51,127 nt of DNA from Cyanobacteriota bacterium (GTDB lineage Bacteria; Cyanobacteriota; Vampirovibrionia; LMEP-6097): positions 1-51,127 of the forward strand of contig JAQCFG010000008.1 of assembly GCA_027618255.1 (NCBI GenBank), given 5' to 3'. A program made the position numbers and the translations under genes. Every line of letters starts with the position of its first letter. Positions within the stretch are counted from its first letter, which is position 1. Shown here in pieces: positions 4,805 through 48,649 of this stretch. The notes under the pieces were generated by a model. It worked only from the letters and a program-made list of their open reading frames with translations. It was not told the origin of the DNA and did no database searches.

Positions 4805-5849
4805 AACTCTCTTTCAAACCACTCATTGCAATCCCCTTCACAAAATACTTTTGCGTCAGTAAGAAAAGTATCACAATCGGCACTATCATAATTAAAACAG
4901 CAGCCATCAATGGTCCCCACTCGGCTCCGCCAAGCTTGCTTTGATATTGCTGCAAGGCCAGTGACAAAGTATATTGAGTTTCGTCGATAAGGAAGATACT
5001 TGGTTTAAGCAGGTCGTTCCAGCTAATCAAGAATTGAAACAAGCCAACCACCATCAAAGCTGGCTTGGCTAATGGAACATAAATATCTTTCCAGATAGTG
5101 AATTCATTAGCGCCATCGATACGCGCGGAGTCAGCAAGATCACGAGGGATGGTCAAAAAGAATTGACGCAATAAAAATATATAGAATGGCAGCCCGCAAA
5201 AATACGGCACAATGAGCGGTAACATAGTTCCATACCAACCCATTTGTTTGAATAGAATAAACTGTGGCACCATCAGAACCATGTCAGGCAGCATGATAGT
5301 AGCAAGAGTGATTGCAAAAAACAAATCGCGCCCCTTCCATTCAAGTGCACTAAAAGCATAAGCAGCCAATGAGGAAGCAACCACAACTCCAAAAATATTA
5401 AAAACAGCAATATAAATCGTATTTAGCAAAGAATTTAAGAAGTTGATTTTACTAAGAGCCAACCAAAAATTGGACCAAACAACAGGATTAGGAATCCACT
5501 CAAACCCACTACTGGACTTACTAGACTTGTTTTGAAAGTCGGAATTATCTCCAAAGGCAACACGCGCATTCAGCGTGGTTGCTACCTTTTTTAAAGCGAC
5601 CTGTACATCGAAACTTTGTTTCGAAACTGGTCCACTGCAAAAGTCACCTTGATCTTTACTCACGAAACTAGTGCTTTGCACCGTTCCGACCTTTTGTGTG
5701 TCGACATCACTAGCAAAACGCTGTTTTGCAGGATGTCTACTATAAATCTGTTCAGAACCCTTAAGGCTCGTTGAAATAATACAAATAAGTGGCAATAAAA
5801 AAATGCAAGAGAGGCTAATTAACAGTACATGGCTAATTATTTTTTTCAT
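4803..5849 (-). CDS. Sugar-type ABC transporter permease with two tandem element A copies in frame
   Basis: A CUT1/MalG-type inner-membrane permease. Transmembrane segment 1 is residues about 5-28, and the EAA loop that contacts the ATPase reads SARIDGANEFTIWKDIYVPL. The C-terminal segments end in QKYFVKGIAMSGLKES, typical of MalG-like permeases. Length is 348 residues against about 275 usual. The excess is residues about 37-110, encoded by two element A copies placed end to end in the first periplasmic loop. No partner permease, ATPase or binding protein is adjacent, so the substrate is unknown. ATGA overlap with the upstream thioesterase stop shows coupling. Confidence 0.9.
   Translation of the reverse strand: MKKIISHVLLISLSCIFLLPLICIISTSLKGSEQIYSRHPAKQRFASDVDTQKVGTVQSTSFVSKDQGDFCSGPVSKQSFDVQVALKKVATTLNARVAFGDNSDFQNKSSKSSSGFEWIPNPVVWSNFWLALSKINFLNSLLNTIYIAVFNIFGVVVASSLAAYAFSALEWKGRDLFFAITLATIMLPDMVLMVPQFILFKQMGWYGTMLPLIVPYFCGLPFYIFLLRQFFLTIPRDLADSARIDGANEFTIWKDIYVPLAKPALMVVGLFQFLISWNDLLKPSIFLIDETQYTLSLALQQYQSKLGGAEWGPLMAAVLIMIVPIVILFLLTQKYFVKGIAMSGLKES
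5520..5741 (+). repeat. Two tandem element A copies inside the ABC permease gene
   Basis: Copy 1 (5520-5632) has the hairpin GCAACACGCGC...GCGTGGTTGC and the GTACATCGAAACTTTG segment. Copy 2 (5632-5741) has the GTGCTTTGCAC hairpin, terminal hairpin GCAAAACGCTGTTTTGC and right end GGATGTCTA. Together they keep the frame open on the minus strand for about 74 codons. Copy 1 matches the frame used in resB, and copy 2 the frame used in dciA. Confidence 0.85.
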
Positions 5850-7443: not shown

Positions 7444-7601
7444 GTCATTGCGAGAAGCGAAGCGACGAAGCAAACTAATGCTCCTTAAAGCAAACGCAAC
7501 ATTCGTTGCGGTTGCTACCTTTTTTAAAGCGACATCACTAGCAAAACGGGGTTTTGCAGGATGTCTAATACTTAGATTACTTCGCTGCTCTCGCAATGAC
7601 G
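7444..7601. repeat. GTCATTGCGAG palindromic repeat interrupted by an element A copy
   Basis: The left arm GTCATTGCGAGAAGCGAAGC starts at 7444, and the complementary right arm GATTACTTCGCTGC..CTCGCAATGAC ends at 7601. Between them lies an element A copy (7481-7570). This is a nested insertion: the GTCATTGCGAG repeat is the older of the two. The arm also sits directly at the stop codon of the LD-carboxypeptidase gene. Confidence 0.75.
7481..7570 (+). repeat. Element A copy lacking its left end
   Basis: From CCTTAAAGCAAACGCAAC to GGATGTCTAATA it matches the full-length copies at 25579, 41142 and 48482, but the first about 27 bp (TTAGACTTACTGCAAAAGTC and following) are missing. Confidence 0.85.
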
Positions 7602-25547: not shown

Positions 25548-25695
25548 CATCCTGCAAAACTCAGTTTTACAGGATATCTAATAGACTTACTGCAAAAGTC
25601 GGAATTATCCTTAAAGCAAACGCAACATTCGTTGCGGTTGCTACCTTTTTTAAAGCGACATCACTAGCAAAACGGGGTTTTGCAGGATGTCTAAT
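25548..25695 (+). repeat. Partial hairpin plus full-length element A copy
   Basis: A mini-hairpin (ATCCTGCAAAAC-TCA-GTTTTACAGGAT, 25549-25575) is followed by a complete element A (25579-25695). The latter is identical over about 113 bp to 41142-41257 and, in inverse orientation, to 48482-48598. Intergenic, between rpmI and the unknown gene at 25790. Confidence 0.9.
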
Positions 25696-35796: not shown

Positions 35797-36344
35797 GATT
35801 TGTAGCTATACACAAATATGAGCTTGGATCTCCCAAACTCCAAATATGTATAGATACTTTAAATAATACAATAATAGAAGTTAATATGTAAAGCACAAGG
35901 CAAAAATTCTAATAAAGTTGTCCCATGAATTTAACTTACTCGACTGCAAGCAACCGAGTTTTTCAAGTCAAATTCATCATTTTCTTTGAAAATGACCGGC
36001 AAAACTTTGATCGTCATTCCATTCAATAGACTTCCTGCGAAAATACCAATTATCTCCATTAGCGGAACACATACTTCGTATGGTTCCGACCTTTTTTGTG
36101 TCGACATCACTTGCAAAACAGGGTTTTGCAGGATGTCTAATCCTCCGAGAGCAAGCTCTCGAGTTTTCACTACATTCGGAATAAAATAGCTAGTTTTTAG
36201 GGTGTTTTACTCTATCTTTGATATCATCTTTGGTGAAGACTTTGCTTAACGAAGCAGCGAAGCGTAGGCAGCTTGCAAAGCAAGCATCTGCAGGCAGGAA
36301 CTGCCATAAGCACATTCAATAAGCTATGCTTCTTGAATGACCGA
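35797..36344. other. Gene-free 548-bp stretch of palindromic repeats before tRNA-Val
   Basis: Contains an element A copy (36025-36141), flanking CTCGAGTTTTCA-like and CCGAGTTTTTCA segments, and a GCTTGC-AAA-GCAAGC hairpin near 36270-36288 next to CTGCAGGCAGGAACTGCC. Short open frames across it match no protein. I see no clear tRNA promoter. Confidence 0.7.
36025..36141 (+). repeat. Element A copy with divergent internal hairpin
   Basis: Left end AATAGACTTCCTGCG, internal hairpin GGAAC-ACATAC-TTC-GTATG-GTTCC, terminal hairpin GCAAAACAGGGTTTTGC, right end GGATGTCTAAT. The inner stem CATAC/GTATG replaces GTGC/GCAC of the 2683 copy by paired changes. Confidence 0.85.
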
Positions 36345-36517: not shown

Positions 36518-37453
36518 ATGTCCCTTGATAAAAATCAAGAAGCAACTCTAACGAGCCTGTTACACAGTTTGTGTGCCAAGGCTGCACCTGCATTATCCAA
36601 TCTTGCAGGTAGCACGATTGATATTCAGTTTAATAGTTTTGTTTCTGCTAAAACGAGTGCCGAAAATCTTCATTCAGAAGAAGAACTAGTTCTTGCTTCA
36701 GCAAAATTGGCTGAAGGTACAATCAATCTTTTATTTCTTAAAAATGATGCTGCAAGCATAGCCGGTCTCATCACCGGTTCCAAAGAACCCAATCCTGAAT
36801 TTACTGAATCAATGAACGGAGCATTGAGTTCTGCTATTACTGAAGCTCTCAATACTGTACTTATCAACAATAAACAAATTGACATTGGCTATCAGCAAAA
36901 TAGTTTAAAACTCAAAATGATTGACCCGAATAACCAAGAGACGCTTGGTCTTGGTCAAATGGGAATGGCCCCGAAAATAGCTCTGGCATTAAGTCTTCAT
37001 TCTGAATCAAAGAACATCAAAGTTCAAATAGAAGTGCCGACAAGTTTAATCCAAAGTAAAATAGTTTCAGCTGCAAGTCCAAGCAAAACTAACAAAGATG
37101 CAACGATTGGTGATGTTTTTGGTGCAGACTTTAGTGAGATAATTAACTCTCACAATCCTGAAGAAATAGATGAGAAAAAAAATCTCAATTTGCTGATGGA
37201 CATTAGACTTGGTCTAATTGTTGAGCTGGGTAGATCAGAAATGCACCTTAAAGAAATTCTCAAATTAACCAAAGGTTCGATTATCGAACTTGATAGACTT
37301 TCTGGCGAGCCTGTAGATTTATTTGCAAACAATAAACTCATAGCACGTGGTGAAGTTGTTGTTATCGATGATAATTTTGGACTTCGAATTACACAATTAG
37401 CTGGTCTAACTAATCAAGCCGAACTAAATCTCTTAGGTGGAGACGCTGATTAA
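36518..37453 (+). CDS. fliN: FliN/FliY-like flagellar switch protein, copy 1
   Basis: 311 residues. The C-terminal 80 residues form a SpoA/FliN domain: [57 protein letters not shown]. In the switch complex this domain builds the C-ring and contacts FliM/FliG and CheY. The N-terminal region (1-190) looks like a CheC/FliY-type alpha/beta domain but I see no CheC phosphatase motif. A second gene of the same layout is at 41391. CATAAG lies 6 bases before the ATG. A methyltransferase gene overlaps its 3' end by 17 bases. Confidence 0.85.
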
Positions 37454-38684: not shown

Positions 38685-38734
38685 TACAAGTCTTTTTTTA
38701 AGAATTATTGCAAAATACTAGTTATTTTTTCTGG

Positions 38735-38740
38735 TATTAT
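38735..38740 (+). promoter_or_regulatory. Extended -10 promoter for the tandem repeat and tRNA-Thr
   Basis: TATTAT preceded by TGG, predicting a start near 38747, just before the first 127-bp unit at 38751. No strong -35; a TTGCAA at 38708 is too far (21 bp). Confidence 0.5.
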
Positions 38741-38750
38741 GGTTTGAGTT

Positions 38751-39004
38751 GTGCTGAGCTAGCTCAGTTGCCAGGCACCGGTACTAATAAGTCAAGATTC
38801 GACATGAGAATCAACGACAAGGTGCCAGAATGACAAAAGACGTCTGACGAAAGTCAGATGCGAAATAGACAAAGTATGTGCTGAGCTAGCTCAGTTGCCA
38901 GGCACCGATACTAATAAGTCAAGATTCGACATGAGAATCAACGACAAGGTGCCAGAATGACAAAAGACGTCTGACGAAAGTCAGATGCGAAATAGACAAA
39001 GTAT
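38751..39004 (+). ncRNA. Two tandem 127-bp structured units headed by a tRNA 5' end
   Basis: Units 38751-38877 and 38878-39004 differ at one position (GGCACCGGTAC against GGCACCGATAC). Each starts with GTGCTGAGCTAGCTCAGTTG, which differs by a single base from the first 19 bases of tRNA-Thr that follows at 39007. Each has stem 1 GGCACC/GGTGCC (38774-38779 with 38821-38826), inside it hairpin GATTC-7 nt-GAATC (38796-38812), and then an 8-bp stem CGTCTGAC/GTCAGATG closed by a GAAA tetraloop (38841-38860). The phase continues exactly into the tRNA. It is likely transcribed with the tRNA from 38735-38740. I do not recognise the RNA family. Confidence 0.7.
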
Positions 39005-39006
39005 GT

Positions 39007-39082
39007 GCTGAGGTAGCTCAGTTGGTAGAGCATCTGACTTGTAATCAGGCGGTCGAGGGTTCGATTCCTTTCCTCAGCACCA
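39007..39082 (+). tRNA. tRNA-Thr (anticodon TGT)
   Basis: Acceptor GCTGAGG/CCTCAGC, D-arm GCTCAGTTGGTAGAGC, anticodon stem TCTGA/TCAGG with loop CTTGTAA (anticodon TGT), T-arm GAGGGTTCGATTCCTTT, encoded CCA. 76 nt. Its first 19 bases are the template-like head of the upstream tandem units. Confidence 0.95.
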
Positions 39083-39090
39083 TATAAACG

Positions 39091-39122
39091 AAAAAGGAGC
39101 CCCCTCGAGGGCTCTTTTTTCG
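39091..39122 (+). terminator. Intrinsic terminator of the tRNA-Thr unit
   Basis: Stem GAGCCC/GGGCTC around CCTCGA, followed by six T and CG. It is 10 bases after the tRNA CCA. Confidence 0.85.
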
Positions 39123-39308
39123 TTTCTGGCGCAGAGAAAGAAATCGTCCCTCAACTGCCACTTGACTCAGGTGGAGAGGTTCCCGTGGTTATGGTACACC
39201 CAATACATCAATGCCAAAGCATGACCCACGGTATCTGGCGAAGCCAGATCTAACACGATACAGCGTTAAGAAAACGATTAAGTATCATTTTTAGCTTGAC
39301 CTCACTAA
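39123..39308 (+). other. Structured intergenic region, possible RNA
   Basis: Without a gene. It holds CCACTT-GACTC-AGGTGG, a long-range pair CCGTGG/CCACGG with TATG/CATG inside it, the perfect hairpin ATCTGGC-GAA-GCCAGAT, and at the end GATAC-AGCGTT...AACG...GTATC followed by ATTTTT, which looks like a weak terminator. No promoter seen. Not 4.5S, 6S, tmRNA or RNase P RNA as far as the conserved motifs allow. Confidence 0.35.
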
Positions 39309-41104: not shown

Positions 41105-41143
41105 AATGAAGCTCCCCGATGCAGAGCATAGGGGTATCTTCAT
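41105..41143. repeat. CCCCG...CGGGG-type palindrome next to element A
   Basis: AATGAAG-CTCCCC-GATGC-AGA-GCATAGGGG-TATCTTCATT. The same type of hairpin (CCCCGCTGC/GCAGACGGGG, with a TATC exit) occurs at the right end of the window (51084-51105). Confidence 0.65.
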
Positions 41144-41257
41144 TAGACTTACTGCAAAAGTCGGAATTATCCTTAAAGCAAACGCAACATTCGTTGCGGT
41201 TGCTACCTTTTTTAAAGCGACATCACTAGCAAAACGGGGTTTTGCAGGATGTCTATT
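41142..41257 (+). repeat. Full-length element A, intergenic
   Basis: ATTAGACTTACTGCAAAAG to GGATGTCTATT, 116 bp. Identical to 25579-25695 and to the inverted copy at 48482-48598 apart from the last bases. Internal hairpin GCAACCGCAAC/GTTGCGTTTGC-type stem, terminal hairpin GCAAAACGGGGTTTTGC. Confidence 0.9.
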
Positions 41258-41390
41258 AATCAGGTGCGTATCGAAGTCATTGGTAGTTTAAATATCGGCC
41301 ATTAAGTCTAAGTCAAATAATATAGATCAAGCTTAAAGATGGAGAGTCAGATGTATATAGCTGAGGCATAAAACAATGAGGAGACACCTT

Positions 41391-42380
41391 ATGAGCCCAG
41401 ACGATGAATATGAATTTAATGAAATCGCACAAGCAGCGGCAGTTGAAGCTTCAAAAAGCATCTCAGACTTTCTAGGCCAAGCTGTAGAATTAAATTTTTC
41501 TAGATTAATAGACTCCTCAATGACTAGTAACAAAATCATTGTCAAAAGCGACTCTCTTTTAGTTTCTGCCTCAATCAAGGGATATGGTCCCCTATCACTA
41601 ATTATTAGTAATATCCATGCACTCAACCTTTCTAATATATTTAAAGAAAACAATGGAGAATCAGCAGAAACAGAACTTAAAGAAGAAGATCAACAAACTC
41701 TTGCTGAACTTTGCATCGAAGTTCTCAATTCAGCAATAGCATTCTTCATGAAGAGCAATGACGCTGCCGTTCTTGAAGTTCTAGAAACTAGTTCAAAATC
41801 ATTAATAGCTAACGATAGCTCAAGTCTTGAACTTCCAGCTGGAATAGAAGACTCAATTGGAATGGGCTTCAAAATCAAAACAACTAGCGGACTTGAAGCA
41901 GTTATTCAAGTTGAAGCCAATTCAAAACTCGTAGAATTTTTAGCTCAGACACTTGTAGGTTTAAGACCTGAAGCTAGAGAAGGTATAAGCATAGAAGAAA
42001 CCGGTACTGAGCCAGTAACTACTGAAACAACTGCGGCAACAGAAAATCAAGCCACAACCAATCCTGAAACGACTCTATCAACTAATGATGATGATGTAGT
42101 AAACCCTAGTCGCAACCTTAATTTCATGCGCCATGTAAACATGGAACTTGTTCTTGAGCTTGGCAGATCAGAAATGCCAATGAGAGATATTTTAACGCTG
42201 ACACGTGGCTCAGCTATCGAGCTTGATAGACCTTGTGACAAACCAGTAGATCTTTATGTGCACAATCAATTAATTGCACGTGGTGAAGTAGTTGCAATTG
42301 ATGACAACTTCGGCATCAAGATTGTTGAGTTGGTTGGCAACCTTGACGTGAGCCAAGGGCTTGCAGCACTAATGCAGTAA
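41391..42380 (+). CDS. fliN: FliN/FliY-like flagellar switch protein, copy 2
   Basis: 329 residues with the same layout as the gene at 36518: an N-terminal CheC/FliY-like alpha/beta region, a Thr/Glu-rich linker (about 210-240, TEPVTTETTAATENQATTNP) and a C-terminal FliN domain (MELVLELGRSEMPMRDILTL...IARGEVVAIDDNFGIKI). ATG 41391 is chosen, with GAGGAG 7 bases upstream; an in-frame ATG at 41376 lies before this site. Its last 65 bases overlap ccsA on the other strand. The two copies may be FliN and a FliM- or FliY-like partner. Confidence 0.85.
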   Translation: MSPDDEYEFNEIAQAAAVEASKSISDFLGQAVELNFSRLIDSSMTSNKIIVKSDSLLVSASIKGYGPLSLIISNIHALNLSNIFKENNGESAETELKEEDQQTLAELCIEVLNSAIAFFMKSNDAAVLEVLETSSKSLIANDSSSLELPAGIEDSIGMGFKIKTTSGLEAVIQVEANSKLVEFLAQTLVGLRPEAREGISIEETGTEPVTTETTAATENQATTNPETTLSTNDDDVVNPSRNLNFMRHVNMELVLELGRSEMPMRDILTLTRGSAIELDRPCDKPVDLYVHNQLIARGEVVAIDDNFGIKIVELVGNLDVSQGLAALMQ

Positions 42381-44262: not shown

Positions 44263-45430
44263 CTCGCCTCCTTAAATAAGTAAAGAAAGCAAAACCAAAA
44301 TGCCAAAATAGACCAAGAGAAATAATCAAACTGGATATATAAGGAAGCAACCTTGCATGATTTTTTACAATAGCAAGCACTGTAAATTCATTACCATCAA
44401 GATCAATGCCATAACTGGATTGATAGACAGTATAAGCAGTGGAACGGAAGGGTTGATTCATCGAAATCGTATATTTGCGCTTGCTATCACCCTCTACTAG
44501 TTTCACCTTGCTTAAATAGGACTTGGCAGTTTGAGTACCAGGATGCAAATCTCTTTGGACATCCAATAATTGAATTGCAAAAGGCAAAGTATATTGTTTG
44601 CGTCTCAATTCAAAAACATATTGCTCATGGTCAATAGTCATAAAAGCCATACTCTCTTGCTGACCTTCCAGTATGAGTTCTCTGTTATCAACGACTAAAG
44701 TCACAGCTCTATTGTTCTTTTCAAAATCAGTTTCAACAGGAAGGTTCTTTAAAATACGCCCAGCAAAAGGCGTATCAAAGTATCTAGCGTTTAAGTATTT
44801 AGTACTAATATAGATTTTGTGAGCATCAATAGACTCATTTTGGAAGTCGGATTTATCTCCAAGAGCAACACGCGCTTTCTGCGCGGTTGCTACCTTTTTT
44901 TGAGCGCCCTGTACATCGAAACTTTGTTTCGAAACAGGTCTAAGCACAACAAATTTACCAACACTTAGATCTTGTTCTTTAAATATCCATTCTTCTCCGT
45001 CTTTCCAAACAGCAAGCTCCCAGAGCATATAATCAGAAGCAACGTTGCTTTGCTCAGCTTCCTTCAATTGCATAAATGATTCCTCACTAAAATGCAAAGT
45101 CATAAAAGCACTGAGCATAAGTACAATCAAACCAGTATGAGACAGTATCAAACCAAGATTGGACCAGCGATAGCGAAAACGCAAACACAAAACACTAACA
45201 AGGTTGATAAATAGAACCCAAATCACCAAGCGAGCTCCAGGTACAATATATAAACCAGGTACAAACCAAGAATTAAAGTAACGCTGTTGAGCTAAATAAA
45301 GACCATATTCAACTTGATCAATAGTCCCGAGCAAAACTAAAACAGCAAGCAAAAACAAACAAACAACAGTAAGTTTCAATGAAGTCAAAAAAGCAAATAT
45401 TGGGTTTTTGAGTAAGCCTGAGCGCATCAA
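44255..45430 (-). CDS. resB: ResB/Ccs1-like cytochrome c biogenesis protein with in-frame element A
   Basis: 391 residues. Three N-terminal membrane segments (FAFLTSLKLTVVCLFLLAVL near 12-31, ARLVIWVLFINLVSVLCL near 65, NLGLILSHTGLIVLML), a large periplasmic domain, and a final membrane helix (YISSLIISLGLFWHFGFAFF), the ResB/Ccs1 plan. Residues about 163-201 (RPVSKQSFDVQ...SDFQNES) come from an element A copy in the periplasmic domain, between FVVL and IDAHKIYIS. Forms the heme-delivery complex with CcsA directly downstream. Confidence 0.88.
   Translation of the reverse strand: MMRSGLLKNPIFAFLTSLKLTVVCLFLLAVLVLLGTIDQVEYGLYLAQQRYFNSWFVPGLYIVPGARLVIWVLFINLVSVLCLRFRYRWSNLGLILSHTGLIVLMLSAFMTLHFSEESFMQLKEAEQSNVASDYMLWELAVWKDGEEWIFKEQDLSVGKFVVLRPVSKQSFDVQGAQKKVATAQKARVALGDKSDFQNESIDAHKIYISTKYLNARYFDTPFAGRILKNLPVETDFEKNNRAVTLVVDNRELILEGQQESMAFMTIDHEQYVFELRRKQYTLPFAIQLLDVQRDLHPGTQTAKSYLSKVKLVEGDSKRKYTISMNQPFRSTAYTVYQSSYGIDLDGNEFTVLAIVKNHARLLPYISSLIISLGLFWHFGFAFFTYLRRRDA
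44829..44943 (+). repeat. Element A copy inside resB
   Basis: 115 bp from ATAGACTCATTTTGG to AACAGGTCTAA. Internal hairpin GCAACACGCGC-TTTC-TGCGCGGTTGC and the GTACATCGAAACTTTG segment. The translated peptide matches copy 1 of the ABC permease in most positions and in frame. Confidence 0.88.
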
Positions 45431-48407: not shown

Positions 48408-48481
48408 AGCCCAGGTTTCTCCTTGACATATAGCTATATATATCGGCACTTTAGCCGGATACTTGAATTTAAAAATATTAA

Positions 48482-48598
48482 TAATAGACATCCTGCAAAA
48501 CCCCGTTTTGCTAGTGATGTCGCTTTAAAAAAGGTAGCAACCGCAACGAATGTTGCGTTTGCTTTAAGGATAATTCCGACTTTTGCAGTAAGTCTAAT
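48482..48598 (-). repeat. Full-length element A, inverted orientation
   Basis: 117 bp from AATAGACATCCTGC to AGTCTAAT, the only copy in the window in this orientation. Apart from its terminal bases it is identical to 25579-25695 and 41142-41257. Intergenic, between the HDOD and DUF2797 genes. Confidence 0.9.
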
Positions 48599-48649
48599 GA
48601 AGCTTAGTCCATCCCCAAAGCAGTTTTGGAACTTATCCTTAAGCAATCC

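Follow-up and report, generated by a model that had tools for sequence, protein, structure and literature searches.

Units of sense and antisense tRNA pieces beside tRNA genes in Candidatus Caenarcaniphilales

The window, a stretch of 51,127 nucleotides, belongs to a 2-Mb metagenome-assembled genome (G000) of Candidatus Caenarcaniphilales (Melainabacteria), which are non-photosynthetic cyanobacteria, and carries directly upstream of a tRNA-Thr gene a tandem pair of units that is one case of a pattern found across this order. The units lay out sense, antisense and sense pieces of the tRNA that they adjoin, are restricted to the order in our sample of the class, change in copy number between relatives and, where they lie upstream of the tRNA, fold in a strand-specific manner. 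We give about an even chance to the explanation that small foldback duplications (sense-antisense-sense) arose repeatedly at tRNA genes and were then expanded in tandem, with the upstream leaders that persist being those that fold by themselves.

The tRNA-Thr locus and its relatives

The features of the locus are as follows (coordinates are those of the window):

38732-38740, plus strand: extended -10-like TGGTATTAT, 5' of the first unit; also kept in G001, a genome of the same genus
38751-38877, plus strand: repeat unit 1, 127 bp
38753-38770, plus strand: tRNA-Thr nt 1-18 copied with the change G7C, which gives self-complementary CTGAGCTAGCTCAG, unit 1
38774-38826, plus strand: outer hairpin GGCACC/GGTGCC (38774-38779/38821-38826) enclosing an inner GATTC/GAATC hairpin, unit 1
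38841-38862, plus strand: GAAA-capped hairpin of unit 1 (predicted fold), antisense half at 38851-38861
38878-39004, plus strand: repeat unit 2, 127 bp, one difference from unit 1
38880-38897, plus strand: second copy of tRNA-Thr nt 1-18 with G7C, unit 2
38968-38989, plus strand: GAAA-capped hairpin, unit 2, with the antisense of tRNA nt 24-34 at 38978-38988
39007-39082, plus strand: tRNA-Thr(UGU) gene (ARAGORN; RF00005, 72.4 bits)
39086-39125, plus strand: palindromic terminator AAACGAAAAAGGAGCCCC...GGGCTCTTTTTTCGTTT, which doubles as the hinge of a larger inverted repeat
39127-39182, minus strand: degenerate antisense copy of tRNA-Thr, nt 22-76; also in G001

Each unit runs from the copy of tRNA nt 1-18 through the outer stem with its inner hairpin, an A-rich linker and the GAAA-capped hairpin to a short leader. 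A sequence-only reading of the window had described two near-identical 127-bp tandem units headed by the 5' end of tRNA-Thr with one base changed into a palindrome, and had listed GGCACC/GGTGCC, an inner hairpin and a GAAA-capped 8-bp stem in each, all of which is borne out: the units are 99% identical, the first 18 bases of the tRNA recur, and these hairpin elements are present in the predicted fold (MFE z -3.6), where the G to C change at copied nt 7 lengthens the local pairing of the copied acceptor strand. The GAAA-capped stem comprises eight pairs (38841-38848/38853-38860), one of them G-T, and one half of this hairpin is formed in each unit by AAGTCAGATGC, the exact 11-nt reverse complement of tRNA-Thr nt 24-34 on the 5' side of the anticodon arm, a match that the sequence-only reading had missed, as it had the antisense tRNA-Thr described below. 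This is the sole antisense remnant in the upstream Thr units of the window, antisense of nt 1-23 being absent. Read on the minus strand, the hairpin of unit 1 is terminator-like. The extended -10 proposed in the same reading is present as TGGTATTAT, but a sigma-70 promoter scan upstream of the first unit returned no match and no acceptable -35, the TTGCAA found 21 nt before TGGTATTAT being too distant for a normal -35.

On the other side of the gene, the strong terminator forms the centre of a 76% inverted repeat (39048-39159), and the antisense tRNA-Thr copy past it aligns with a score of 38 vs at most 26 for any other G000 tRNA in the same flank and 36 as the highest score among 500 shuffles. 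An Rfam search of the region matched tRNA as the only known RNA family, and ARAGORN and RF00005 call an intact tRNA only at 39007-39082; the suggestion that the units are a tRNA-like decoy thus finds no direct support, since neither ARAGORN nor Rfam calls them tRNA. There is no Rfam T-box match either, and the locus sits at a tRNA gene, not in the leader of an amino-acid gene. No complete core of a hammerhead or other known ribozyme was apparent by eye, and none was found by Rfam.

Close relatives identified through a neighbouring methyltransferase protein bear the names Candidatus Caenarcaniphilales, Caenarcanales or Melainabacteria. Our family sample (f1) consists of nine genomes, all of them metagenome-assembled. 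G001 holds a single truncated unit at the same site; of the fold, the persistence of which in relatives was a concern of the sequence-only reading, the GAAA-capped hairpin and the leader are nearly unchanged (a single difference from G000 between GACAAGGTGCC and the tRNA), and both the copied tRNA 5' end and the outer-stem arm GGCACC are gone. In G003, G007 and G008 (another genus) and in G006, the same Thr tRNA gene has units downstream instead, which terminate with the tRNA 3' end copied exactly and hold 14-16 nt antisense to the anticodon arm. Copy number differs among relatives at the upstream Thr units (two in G000, one truncated in G001) and at the upstream Met units (four in G007, two in G003, one in G008), which shows tandem growth. 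Together with units of the same plan at other tRNAs, these differences support the earlier suggestion of a tRNA-derived repeat element in tandem growth.

The window contains further repeats. A dispersed repeat of about 90-125 bp occurs in at least seven places, in both orientations and with up to 100% identity (7482-7578, 25572-25695, 41132-41258 and 48474-48602; also 2682-2801, 5683-5747 and 36022-36144). A 111-bp repeat (5522-5632 and 44830-44940, 88% identical) lies inside two unrelated minus-strand protein genes, ABC-permease-like and ResB-like, where it reads in frame as ...SKQSFDVQ..KKVAT..ARVA.GD.SDFQN... and resembles the palindromic elements within Rickettsia genes. Two FliM/FliN (SpoA)-like proteins are encoded on either side of the tRNA-Thr locus (36518-37453 and 41376-42380), with 72% DNA identity over 165 bp at their 3' ends.

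A common plan at many tRNA genes of the order

Copies of a tRNA's own ends were scored as exact matches of at least 11 nt to the own 5' end upstream or the own 3' end downstream, within 400 nt and with other tRNAs masked. By this rule such copies accompany 36 of 119 sampled tRNA genes in Caenarcaniphilales and 2 of 125 sampled from eight further families of its class (Fisher p 8e-11), a comparison in which some of the 119 loci entered the sample through sequence matches and the background is one class. The completely sampled, and hence unbiased, tRNA sets give 10 of 31 for G000 (11 if Thr is counted, with its one mismatch) and 8 of 33 for G007. Within family f1, a tRNA end is found copied in the flank of a different tRNA in only 0.08% (upstream) and 0% (downstream) of pairings, so the match between unit and tRNA is beyond chance. 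The antisense pieces follow the same rule: stretches of at least 9 nt are antisense to the own tRNA in 22 of 40 units vs 6.6% for other tRNAs, and rank tests of the own tRNA yield 23 vs 5 expected for downstream antisense and 31 vs 5 for downstream direct copies, with a modest excess for upstream antisense (10 vs 5). In the other families these tests gave no clear excess. One lone downstream unit at a tRNA-Val gene of another family (L219, genome G055), in which nt 55-76 and the trailer are repeated after about 210 bp, points to sporadic occurrence outside the order.

A survey of the complete G000 set (31 tRNA genes) and of half the tRNA genes in G006 and G007 showed the same plan at many isoacceptors: a terminal tRNA copy combined with a hairpin and with sequence antisense to that tRNA. 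Most units measure 50-250 bp. Upstream units open, after the leader, with an exact copy of the tRNA 5' end that reaches from nt 1 to about nt 18 (at most nt 31); a hairpin and a sense piece come next, then a tight hinge loop that leads into the antisense piece, and a second stretch of leader joins this to the tRNA. In downstream units the trailer or terminator behind the tRNA gives way to antisense of an inner tRNA segment, on which follow a sense piece, a hairpin, an exact copy of the 3' end (from nt 42-64 through CCA) and the trailer once more. The two are thus mirror images of each other. The succession antisense, hinge, sense is directly visible at the Thr, Trp, Asp and Ala genes of genus g2 and in Escherichia coli rtT, and a central inverted copy between two direct copies is found at Thr, Trp, Ala and Asp in g2 and at Lys in G000, where tRNA nt 22-76 lie antisense across a palindromic terminator (score 69 vs 45 for other tRNAs). 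By inspection, the hinges sit at the terminator and at tRNA arms. A canonical terminator separates eight of the 23 downstream units from their tRNA.

Individual arrays show features of their own. Immediately 3' of the downstream array of tRNA-Thr(GGU) in G007 lies a near-perfect 80-nt hairpin (CGTACCTCTGTACGTATAGGCAGGGAG..., L071 647-726). Behind the tRNA-Asp array on contig 19 of G000 (L263) lie an endonuclease-like gene and one for an IS3-like transposase, and 3 kb downstream a further piece of the unit, 29 bp long, recurs. A single mobile element at all loci was considered and rejected, as the inner parts of units at different tRNAs have no more than short stretches in common, for the most part antisense of the T arm or AT-rich trailer, and the sequence of the G000 Asp unit is confined to its own array. 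Carriage by phages was likewise rejected, the anticodon-arm hairpin pattern having no match in 2.9 million viral contigs.

Origin of the units and their possible roles

We infer that strand switching produced the units. A switch at a hairpin outside the tRNA, in terminator or leader, would cause the tRNA to be copied backwards, and a second switch at a hairpin inside the tRNA, in the T arm or anticodon arm, would let forward copying resume, to give a full tRNA, an antisense piece and a sense terminal piece on one side, or the mirror image if upstream. The turning points would be hairpins into which tRNA DNA naturally folds when single-stranded. Remodelling of the unit by deletion, drift and the insertion of hairpins may have followed, and ordinary tandem duplication may have multiplied it. 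The downstream units beyond canonical terminators point to an origin at the level of DNA, which would account both for them and for the mirror symmetry. Inverted triplication by template switching has been described at larger scale (PMC4689423), and template switching homogenises short inverted repeats (PMC8604942). Against the foldback explanation, no strand-switch intermediate or recent event was seen among the units, each unit holds an extra perfect hairpin that is not tRNA-derived and for which the model has no account, and the model offers no reason why units abound in this order alone.

For an upstream unit, which is probably transcribed in the tRNA precursor, the foldback explanation has a consequence at the RNA level. 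Within the pre-tRNA leader the copied acceptor strand could be a rival partner for the 3' half of the real tRNA; units that persist would be those that fold alone on the tRNA strand, so that the copy would be kept locally paired, and RNase P would then free the leader as a structured RNA. In a sample of 14 upstream units from nine ortholog groups, the tRNA strand folds better than the other strand in 12 (mean difference -4.8 kcal/mol), and the copied acceptor strand is paired within the unit with a probability of 0.81, vs 0.56 with the rest of the unit shuffled and 0.58 on the other strand. From these predictions, transcribed upstream leaders appear to be selected to fold by themselves and thereby to keep a competing tRNA piece folded away. 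Downstream units showed no strand bias and no excess local pairing of the 3' copy relative to shuffles, and on the latter ground we rejected them as acceptor mimics. Equilibrium folding of whole precursors proved uninformative as an interference test, since in the model any upstream copy can capture the 3' strand even with shuffled inner sequence. At the Met units two hairpin base pairs are changed on both sides, so that the hairpin is preserved, a pattern that hairpin-templated correction could equally yield.

That the units are kept for an RNA function, either as small RNAs processed from tRNA transcripts or as regulators of the maturation of their own tRNA through the antisense piece and the copied end, we regard as a tentative alternative. 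It draws on the strand-specific folding of the upstream units, on the nearly invariant hairpin and leader in G000 and G001, on terminal copies that keep in step with the tRNA they adjoin (gene and copy of Val alike have a different nt 5 in G006 and in G007) and on E. coli rtT, which has the same plan and is reportedly released from a tRNA operon transcript (PMC4986893); by analogy with rtT, release of an upstream unit as a small RNA is possible. However, downstream units lack strand bias and local pairing and in part lie past the terminator, the tRNA copy and one stem arm were lost in G001, and for one and the same tRNA the presence of units varies among genera. Rather unlikely, in our estimate, is the broader proposal that tRNA-half modules form a general control layer in Caenarcaniphilales, in which structured leader and trailer RNAs would swap strands with their own tRNA, so tuning its maturation or yielding a tRNA-specific small RNA, and in which foldback copying would make and renew the mirror 5' and 3' versions.

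Could the units be remnants or decoys of att sites of integrative elements that use tRNA ends, with the terminal copy as the displaced att half? The terminal copies at the outer edge do resemble att direct repeats, and genuine tRNA-targeted elements occur in the order: in G003 (L257, 5363-6632) a 372-aa tyrosine-recombinase-like ORF adjoins a displaced tRNA-Met fragment (nt 22-77, 100% identity), and this locus is such an element. The units, however, are mostly too small to have room for an integrase gene, contain sequence antisense to the adjoining tRNA, are found on either side of tRNA genes, carry in many cases copies of only 13-15 nt and have, between different tRNAs, no common element sequence beyond short matches, and we consider this origin improbable. 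Simple duplication of tRNA genes in tandem, with neutral decay afterwards, would fit the copy number differences between relatives and the downstream unit of tRNA-Cys in G000 (L052), a degenerate full-length second tRNA-Cys in which the acceptor ends are intact and the D and anticodon arms scrambled. As an explanation of the units it is improbable: decay alone yields no antisense segments of the same tRNA and is disfavoured by their enrichment, would not confine exact identity to the outer end (upstream from nt 1 to about nt 18, downstream through CCA) and gives no strand-specific local pairing.

Relation to rtT and other known systems

The closest precedent for these units is rtT (RttR), an RNA reportedly released from a tRNA operon transcript in E. 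coli (PMC4986893). In the tyrT-tyrV operon, tandem 178-bp units follow tyrV, each with an antisense piece of nt 68-77 (GGGGAAGGAT), sense nt 59-67, hairpins and an exact copy of nt 67-85, that is, the tRNA 3' end with CCA. Both systems thus consist of tandem tRNA-adjacent units with an antisense piece of the neighbouring tRNA, a hairpin and an exact terminal copy. The window units differ in lying upstream and carrying the 5' end, whereas the downstream units of G003, G007 and G008 carry the tRNA 3' end as rtT does; a further difference is that many tRNAs are affected in this order. The RtT covariance model (RF00391) gave no match in the window or its relatives at E up to 5, with four matches of 133-138 bits in the E. 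coli control. Production of the RNA in the course of tRNA processing and a link to the stringent response are further marks of the RtT family.

With inverted triplications or tandem-inversion duplications, whose junctions fall at short inverted repeats (PMC4689423) and for which template switching, snap-back and ODIRA models exist, the units share the succession of sense, antisense and sense copies; they differ in measuring about 100 bp rather than kilobases, in lying always at tRNA genes and in being old and remodelled. Att sites of genomic islands similarly pair a full tRNA on one side with a terminal tRNA copy on the other, but the units hold no element or integrase, have antisense content and use both tRNA ends. 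Pseudogenes and tandem arrays of tRNAs also place tRNA-derived sequence in tandem with the gene; in the units, hairpins replace the anticodon and T-arm regions. We found no description of such tRNA-flanking units in other bacteria in the open-access literature.

Thus rtT, an apparent oddity of E. coli, becomes one instance of a pattern, and its anatomy, with the antisense of a tRNA 3' arm, gains a possible origin. A bacterial order with units at about a quarter to a third of its sampled tRNA genes, and on both sides of them, provides many independent cases in which to study foldback copying at tRNA genes, and material for asking how cells protect tRNA folding from misleading tRNA pieces and whether small RNAs arise from the by-products.
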